The notes beneath the pieces are model-generated. The model did not search any database and was not told the origin of the DNA. It saw only the letters and a program-made list of their open reading frames with translations. Positions 44,567 through 45,155 of a stretch of 64,000 nucleotides of DNA are shown here, piece after piece (within the stretch, counting starts at the first letter, position 1; each line of letters starts with the position of its first letter). The DNA is from Ignavibacteriales bacterium (GTDB lineage: Bacteria; Bacteroidota; Ignavibacteria; UBA10030): NCBI GenBank assembly GCA_026390595.1, contig JAPLFQ010000016.1, positions 62,001 to 126,000 on the forward strand. The letters are read 5' to 3'. A program made the translations under genes and the position numbers.

Positions 44567-44595
44567 TTGCCATCACGGATCTCCTTTCGTATATT
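44567..44595 (+). promoter_or_regulatory. Promoter that should drive tRNA-Ser(UGA)
   Basis: TTGCCA (44567-44572) and TATATT (44590-44595) are 17 nt apart. Transcription would begin about 14 nt before the first truncated tRNA copy (44616), a normal distance for a tRNA gene, yet the intact tRNA starts only at 45040. Confidence 0.6.
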
Positions 44596-44615
44596 TAAAA
44601 GTTGTCAGGGTAATT

Positions 44616-44671
44616 GGAGAGCAGGCCCGCCTGCGGTCGTTTGCACGACCTTCGGCGGGTATACAGAACGG
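44616..44671 (+). pseudogene. Truncated tRNA-Ser 5' end, copy 1, interrupted by a hairpin
   Basis: GGAGAGC (44616-44622) and CAGAACGG (44664-44671) are the two halves of the tRNA 5' fragment. Between them lie 41 nt with a double-stem palindrome (CCCGCC/GGCGGG at 44626-44631 and 44654-44659; GGTCGT/ACGACC inside). Confidence 0.75.
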
Positions 44672-44755
44672 TCCTTCGACTCCGCCTCGACTTGTCCCAA
44701 AGCATAGGACTCGCTCGGCGTCGCTCAGGACAAAACGAGGTTGCTCTAATACTCT

Positions 44756-44773
44756 GGAGAGCTGGCAGAACGG
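44756..44773 (+). pseudogene. Truncated tRNA-Ser 5' end, copy 2
   Basis: GGAGAGCTGGCAGAACGG, identical to nucleotides 1-18 of tRNA-Ser(UGA), ending in the D-loop GG and followed by unrelated palindromic DNA. Confidence 0.8.
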
Positions 44774-44857
44774 TCCTTCGACTCCGCCTCGACTCGTCCC
44801 AAAGCATAGGACTCGCTCGGCGTCGCTGAGGACAAAACGAGGTTGCTCTAATACTCT

Positions 44858-44875
44858 GGAGAGCTGGCAGAACGG
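44858..44875 (+). pseudogene. Truncated tRNA-Ser 5' end, copy 3
   Basis: A further identical 18-nt copy, 102 bp from copy 2 and again broken directly after the D-loop GG, followed by a filler different from the first two. Confidence 0.8.
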
Positions 44876-45039
44876 CCCTTCGATCCTTCGACTCGCGCGA
44901 AGGGTGCGCTATTAAGCTTGCTCAGGATCGAATCCTGAGCGACTCGTGAGGAATTCCCGAGAGGAGTCGAAGGATTCGACTTCGGTCGACAGAAATCGTC
45001 GACCTTCGCTCAGGACAACAAATGTTTCGTAGCACCATT

Positions 45040-45122
45040 GGAGAGCTGGCAGAACGGCTATTGCACCAGTCTTGAAAACTGGCGGGCGTAAGCCCTTGGG
45101 GGTTCGAATCCCTCGCTCTCCG
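45040..45122 (+). tRNA. tRNA-Ser, anticodon UGA
   Basis: An intact type II tRNA. GGAGAGC pairs with GCTCTCC, the anticodon stem CCAGT/ACTGG encloses CTTGAAA with anticodon TGA at 45073-45075, a long variable arm follows, and the T loop is TTCGAAT. The discriminator is G and CCA is not encoded. No good promoter lies directly before it; the nearest is about 440 bp upstream, beyond the truncated copies. Confidence 0.95.
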
Positions 45123-45155
45123 CTCATTGACATTTCTGAGTAGCCGCTGATTGCT

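Follow-up and report, generated by a model that had tools for sequence, protein, structure and literature searches.

A tRNA-Ser(UGA) gene preceded by truncated copies of its own 5' end: a probable remnant of small GIY-YIG nuclease elements invading bacterial tRNA genes

The tRNA-Ser(UGA) locus

The window (the whole stretch of DNA that was analysed, 64,000 nucleotides from an Ignavibacteriales bacterium) contains an intact tRNA-Ser(UGA) gene preceded by three truncated copies of its 5' end, which are separated from each other and from the intact gene by fillers (Table 1). The sequence-only reading of this DNA had reported the 5'-end copies, a break in every extra copy after the GG of the D-loop and a 102-bp direct repeat. 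Examination of the sequence, ARAGORN and a repeat finder clearly recovered the copies; all three extra copies terminate after AACGG in the D-loop, and the direct repeat comprises 2 x 102 bp with 98% identity (the repeat finder gives the coordinates 44664-44867, with the same period as 44672-44875). Copy 1 carries one substitution and is interrupted by a hairpin of 38 nt (z = -3.9 compared with shuffled sequences); the hairpin-split copy 1 is also present in the genomes G002, G004 and G023. The same reading had described the DNA that follows the copies as palindrome-rich, which holds for filler 3, where the region 44876-45020 folds better than 200 of 200 shuffled sequences (z = -4.1), but only weakly for fillers 1 and 2 (z about -0.8 and -1.0, respectively). 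The letters at the end of filler 3 possibly derive from tRNA nt 24-29.

Table 1. Features of the tRNA-Ser(UGA) array (positions in the window)
Feature	Position	Strand	Basis and remarks
Sigma-70-like promoter	44567-44595	+	-35 TTGCCA (44567-44572), 17 nt spacer, -10 TATATT (44590-44595); 10/12 consensus match
Truncated copy 1, tRNA-Ser 5' end	44616-44671	+	Split by hairpin 44624-44661, terminates in CAGAACGG; sequence, repeat finder, folding
Filler 1	44672-44755	+	Palindromic (TCCTTCGACT...GCTCAGGAC) with short leader; sequence, repeat finder; related palindromes elsewhere in the genome
Truncated copy 2	44756-44773	+	Exact tRNA-Ser nt 1-18; sequence, repeat finder
Filler 2	44774-44857	+	Tandem duplicate of filler 1, 98% identical, 102-bp unit; repeat finder
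Truncated copy 3	44858-44876	+	Exact tRNA-Ser nt 1-19; repeat finder
Filler 3	44877-45039	+	Compound palindrome with leader, last letters GCACCATT; sequence, folding
Intact tRNA-Ser(UGA) gene	45040-45123	+	ARAGORN; Rfam tRNA 54.1 bits

The promoter ends 20 nt before copy 1, and the corresponding distance at the intact tRNA genes of this genome that have a clear promoter is 13-22 nt. The DNA directly before the intact tRNA-Ser gene, which now lies 424 nt downstream of the start of copy 1, contains a promoter match at the background level (7/12), and the TTGCCA-TATATT promoter is conserved in the congener G004. Since the sole good promoter is found at the usual tRNA distance before copy 1, copy 1 probably marks the point where the tRNA-Ser gene once began.

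Copies of their own ends at other tRNA genes of the genome

The genome contains 43 intact tRNA genes above the Rfam cut-off, and the tRNA loci were examined as separate stretches. Exact matches of at least 12 nt to the gene's own sequence within 600 bp were found at 12 of these genes, all of them on the sense strand; the absence of antisense matches among the 43 genes excludes chance as an explanation. Upstream copies, found in seven cases, are all 5' pieces that start from nt 1 (Leu-CAA 1-13, Asp 1-15, Arg-UCU 1-35, Arg-ACG 1-16, Gln-CUG 1-12, Ser-UGA 1-18/19 and Ser-GGA 1-70), and downstream copies are 3' pieces (Val-UAC, Asp, Gln-UUG, Leu-UAA and Leu-CAG), with a single exception, an internal match at Gly-UCC (Gly-TCC) within a tRNA cluster. 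The copies thus begin exactly at tRNA nt 1 or finish at the 3' end, and the flanking DNA is mostly unduplicated. The layout at tRNA-Gln(CUG) resembles that in the window, including three 5' pieces with the same type of palindrome after each. Many tRNA genes of the genome (L017-L066) have an AT-rich repeat of AATCGACAATCGAAAATCGGCAATCG type immediately upstream, and this repeat is also present downstream of tRNA-Arg(ACG) and tRNA-Arg(TCG).

A small GIY-YIG nuclease between the intact gene and the displaced copy

At the tRNA-Asp and tRNA-Ser(GGA) genes of the window genome, a small GIY-YIG protein is encoded between the intact gene and the truncated copy. The orthologous tRNA-Ser(UGA) locus of G002 has the order displaced 5' piece, GIY-YIG ORF, intact tRNA; in G003 and G004 the order is 5' pieces, intact tRNA, ORF, displaced 3' piece, and G013 and the more distant G033 contain the intact tRNA, the ORF and a displaced piece in tandem. 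This orthologous locus carries between none (G013) and at least four (G001) of the 5' pieces, and the copy number, the fragment length and the filler all vary among the congeners. Both arrangements recur elsewhere: the intact tRNA is followed by the ORF and a displaced 3' piece at L071, L108, L109, L111 and L115, and a displaced 5' piece precedes the ORF and the intact tRNA at L055 and L107. The spacers at tRNA loci are either about 80-165 bp long or contain a nuclease ORF of about 85-105 aa; no integrase gene was found between the tRNA and the displaced copies, where there is a small GIY-YIG ORF or nothing. No GIY-YIG ORF lies between the truncated copies and the intact tRNA at the window locus, so the ORF may have been lost there or may never have been present; the window genome does have the nuclease at other tRNA genes.

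The membership of these proteins in the GIY-YIG superfamily is indicated by the Pfam domain PF01541, found in 11 of the 11 nucleases from related loci, and by the invariance of the catalytic-type residues Y, Y/G, R and E. The nearest solved structures by sequence are the UPF0213/YhbQ-type proteins 1zg2 and 1ywl and Slx1 (7cq2); NCBIfam and PHROGs offered no useful name. An Rfam scan of the window region and six related loci revealed tRNA alone above the cut-off, the rest being sub-threshold chance matches.

Two further features of these loci were observed. At L108 and L109, a repeated hairpin motif, CAAGACTACG..CTGAGAA..CTTCGTCTTGCAGGCAA, is located between the 3' end of tRNA-Ser and the nuclease ORF, and it occurs again after the displaced 3' piece. 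Beside the tRNA-Asp element of L071, an ORF at 2003-2632 on the reverse strand resembles, by eye, a REP-associated (Y1-type) transposase and is a candidate mobiliser of the palindromes.

Distribution of the nuclease and its relation to the tRNA isotype

When one genome per species was scanned, 80 related nuclease loci were obtained (collection-scan alignment A3). Of these, 69 contain a tRNA gene, nearly always on the same strand, and the distance to the closest tRNA is 2-185 bp (median 23.5 bp). The tRNA-linked loci span more than a dozen phyla, including Ignavibacteriota, Bacteroidota, Fidelibacterota, many Patescibacteria, Nitrospirota, Acidobacteriota, Verrucomicrobiota, Planctomycetota, Chloroflexota, Margulisiibacteriota and Synergistota. 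In this set, 41 of the 50 upstream displaced copies have their start at nt 1-3; among the 68 downstream copies, 56 finish at the tRNA 3' end. Within the order of the window genome, a tRNA was found at 29 of the 30 best loci of the subfamily A2, in every case of one of the isotypes of the query set, Ser or Asp; the control, a different GIY-YIG subfamily from this genome (A5), had a tRNA at 0 of 30 loci. Hadesarchaea assemblies (L148, L151) also contain relatives of the nuclease, with no tRNA within the stretch examined.

The nuclease tree (66 sequences) is built on few columns and has many open forks, so single groupings in it are untrustworthy; the clustering of isotypes on the tree as a whole is clear. 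The isotype of the adjacent tRNA requires 30 changes on this tree and the host phylum 40; when isotypes were shuffled within phyla, the mean was 40.4 changes and the minimum 35, and 0 of 1000 shuffles were as low as 30. Such tracking is the expected trace of a target-specific mobile nuclease that crosses phyla. Phages contain distant relatives of the nuclease alone (<42% identity), a search of plasmids with one query found no relative, and viral contigs gave one; the family looks chromosomal rather than phage- or plasmid-borne.

Hairpins, palindromes and tandem arrays

Displaced tRNA copies carry interruptions in the form of a hairpin or a double hairpin. Among 37 well-folding inserts, 32 fall within one of three tRNA loops, D, anticodon or T (expectation 35%; P = 2e-10, an optimistic value, as related copies are included), and the main insertion points are after nt 18, between the anticodon bases 1/2 or 2/3 and in the T loop at TTC|GA. 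Many of the inserts open with TCC and close with GGA, and the consensus of the Ser type is TCCG-stem-CGAGATCnCG-stem-CGGA. The stems of the Ser-type double hairpins vary in sequence and keep their pairing, with two-sided changes in 8 of 15 pairs (12 sequences); template-switch correction of palindromes could be an alternative source of the kept pairing, with no need for selection. The D-loop fillers of the window agree in position with the hairpins of the displaced copies, yet are more degenerate.

Relatives of the filler palindromes are found in the same genome at non-tRNA sites and inside protein genes, including in the C-terminal domains of T9SS proteins. The sequence-only reading had considered the palindromic filler as the targeting agent and had itself named insertion at unrelated sites as evidence to the contrary, and this suggestion has to be abandoned; what tracks the tRNA gene, at orthologous and distant loci, is the small GIY-YIG nuclease together with a truncated or disrupted tRNA copy. 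The palindrome CCTTCGACTCCGCTCAGGGC was observed in frame within C-terminal sorting-type domains (..ISYQLPALSGVEGSA..) at L007, L008 and L010, at about locus position 1501, and resembles in this the Rickettsia palindromic elements within coding genes.

Tandem arrays were found at several other loci: seven copies of tRNA-Asn 1-24 with a unit of 84 bp (L179, Nitrospirota), three of Val with 84 bp (L154), three of Met with 92 bp (L183) and two of Ala with 74 bp (L187). In each of these arrays, a nuclease ORF adjoins the same tRNA.

Proposed mechanism

The architecture of the loci, the polarity and recurrence of the copies, the association with one nuclease subfamily, isotype tracking, the loop positions and the promoter, as read from the sequences, suggest the following cycle. 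The nuclease would cleave the tRNA gene in the D, anticodon or T loop, and repair from an element-bearing copy would bring in the element DNA together with enough tRNA sequence for a complete gene. The native 5' (or 3') part would be stranded beyond the element as a truncated displaced copy, in which a hairpin or double hairpin would mark the position of the cut. Recutting and unequal repair between near-identical units could then produce tandem stacks of truncated copies; since the intact gene would be rebuilt every time, the site would stay open for reinvasion and truncated copies would accumulate. The window would present the outcome of such a history: the nuclease gene is absent, and there remain the promoter, the palindromes with three displaced 5' pieces, and the tRNA gene as rebuilt. 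We infer cleavage, homing, the order of events and an origin of the window array by this route rather than by a related process.

The window array is probably the residue of repeated invasions of the tRNA gene by small mobile elements with a GIY-YIG nuclease, most likely a remnant array without the ORF that goes back to a widespread family of such elements. The displaced copies and the nuclease at tRNA loci support the earlier suggestion that an element repeatedly enters the tRNA gene and leaves 5' pieces, and the 102-bp duplication, with arrays of 2-7 units elsewhere, speaks for the repeat-driven expansion proposed alongside it. The idea of a D-loop target with 5' duplication can be retained in part: the D-loop is used, but it is one of three loops, and a form with the 3' piece downstream also exists. 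On balance, the evidence leans towards a widespread class of bacterial elements that home into tRNA genes, with one isotype per nuclease lineage, and that regenerate the target, stack the displaced pieces and mark the cut loops with structured double hairpins. A literature search that covered mainly openly available journal articles found no description of GIY-YIG elements invading tRNA genes in bacteria.

Some observations fit this model less readily. The displaced copies are disrupted by hairpins, but the rebuilt tRNA retains the supposed cut site, which leaves the immunity of the carrier unexplained. As relatives of the filler are present away from tRNA genes too, the palindromes may move by a separate route, e.g., a REP-type transposase. 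The tRNA pieces are near-identical while the fillers have strongly diverged, which hints at selection or gene conversion, neither of which is required by the model.

Alternative explanations

Slippage or tandem duplication of part of the tRNA gene, with REP/RPE-like palindromes entering the unconstrained duplicates later, would need no targeting; the 102-bp unit has clearly been duplicated in tandem, and related palindromes do lie at unrelated sites and in coding genes. However, untargeted duplication does not predict copies bounded exactly by tRNA nt 1 or the 3' end with mostly unduplicated flanks, nor the fixed loop positions of the hairpins, and it leaves the association with a single nuclease subfamily and the tracking of isotypes unexplained; we consider it unlikely. 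A selected regulatory or decoy structure, in which the tRNA-like 5' ends and hairpins of a single transcript control tRNA processing or bind tRNA-cutting or tRNA-binding enzymes, would agree with the one promoter ahead of the array, with the sharing of copy 1 and its hairpin by several relatives and with the pairing kept in the Ser-type double hairpins. Against such a role, the congeners differ in copy number, fragment length and filler, one of them having no piece upstream, most tRNA genes are without the structure, and template-switch correction can maintain perfect palindromes in the absence of selection; this makes a regulatory or decoy function distinctly improbable.

Restoration of the tRNA gene by the end of the element is a hallmark of integration by tyrosine-recombinase elements, which could have duplicated an att core within the tRNA. 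No integrase is present at the loci, where the spacers are about 80-165 bp or an ORF of about 85-105 aa, with GIY-YIG as the sole gene seen, and three different loop positions are in use; insertion of this type is very improbable and was rejected. Repeats are error-prone in metagenome assemblies, which are among the sources of the loci examined, and G001 has an N gap inside the tRNA, but the same architecture appears in many independent assemblies, at different tRNAs and with fillers of differing sequence; this agreement leaves scarcely any probability for an assembly artefact, which was likewise rejected.

Implications of the invasion model and comparison with known systems

If small GIY-YIG elements do invade tRNA genes in the proposed way, essential single-copy tRNA genes in many phyla would be standing targets of small homing elements, which would spare the host because the gene is rebuilt. 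Such invasion would account for numerous pseudo-fragments of tRNA genes, and for palindromes beside tRNA genes, in environmental genomes, and it would extend the gene-end replacement known from the mORFs of fungal mitochondria to bacterial RNA genes. The loci also provide small nucleases with predicted target isotypes that can be tested directly.

Slx1 is a DNA repair enzyme that acts on branched DNA, and to our knowledge none of the GIY-YIG proteins of the UPF0213/YhbQ and Slx1 types is mobile or linked to tRNA genes. Rickettsia REP/RPE-like palindromes and the double-hairpin elements (DHEs) of fungal mitochondria, the latter being paired hairpins with variable stems, are short hairpins found in intergenic regions, coding genes and RNA genes. 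The present inserts resemble them in these features, and the dispersal of the filler relatives at unrelated sites is reminiscent of REP/RPE elements, but the hairpins described here differ from REP/RPE elements and DHEs in that they lie in displaced tRNA copies, at fixed positions within the loops. In integrase-type elements, the element end restores the tRNA gene, as it does here; unlike them, the present elements have no integrase, are very small, are found at several loop positions and involve both gene ends. With regard to the features expected of GIY-YIG homing, the nuclease is found at its own putative target (69 of 80 loci beside a tRNA, the lineage following the isotype), and the related loci encode a nuclease with intact catalytic residues, while the window locus has no such ORF.

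SegB of phages T4/T6 is a free-standing GIY-YIG homing endonuclease located among tRNA genes that cuts within them; in phage T6, its preferred sequence is RAWTSGAAC, and tandem amplification of the tRNA-segB segment depends on the enzyme (PMC13096335). RAWTSGAAC is the antisense of GTTCGAATC, which is present in the T loop of 10 of the 43 tRNA genes here; the match of the SegB motif to the tRNA T loop was noted in this analysis. The present nucleases differ from SegB in being about 85-105 aa long, chromosomal, tied to one tRNA and accompanied by displaced tRNA copies. Membership in the T4 Seg family was considered and found unsupported, as an hhalign comparison with SegB gave a probability of 0.7 and E = 0.077, with nothing beyond the region of the GIY motif.

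In the mORFs of fungal mitochondria (atp6 of Allomyces; atp6, atp9, cox2 and nad3 of Glomus), a LAGLIDADG or GIY-YIG endonuclease ORF enters an essential gene together with a replacement gene end, which preserves the function of the gene, and the native end is displaced beyond the ORF (PMC3630166). The same plan, a replacement gene end with the ORF and the native end beyond it, can be seen in both arrangements described above (L071, L108, L109, L111 and L115; L055 and L107), although the tRNA sequences are too conserved to reveal whether the replacement end is of foreign or native origin. The bacterial elements differ from mORFs in residing in chromosomal tRNA genes, in having both 5' and 3' forms and in their loop hairpins and tandem arrays. 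The SegB and fungal mORF precedents make the steps of the proposed cycle plausible, and in our analysis the elements most likely work like homing elements with gene-end replacement.
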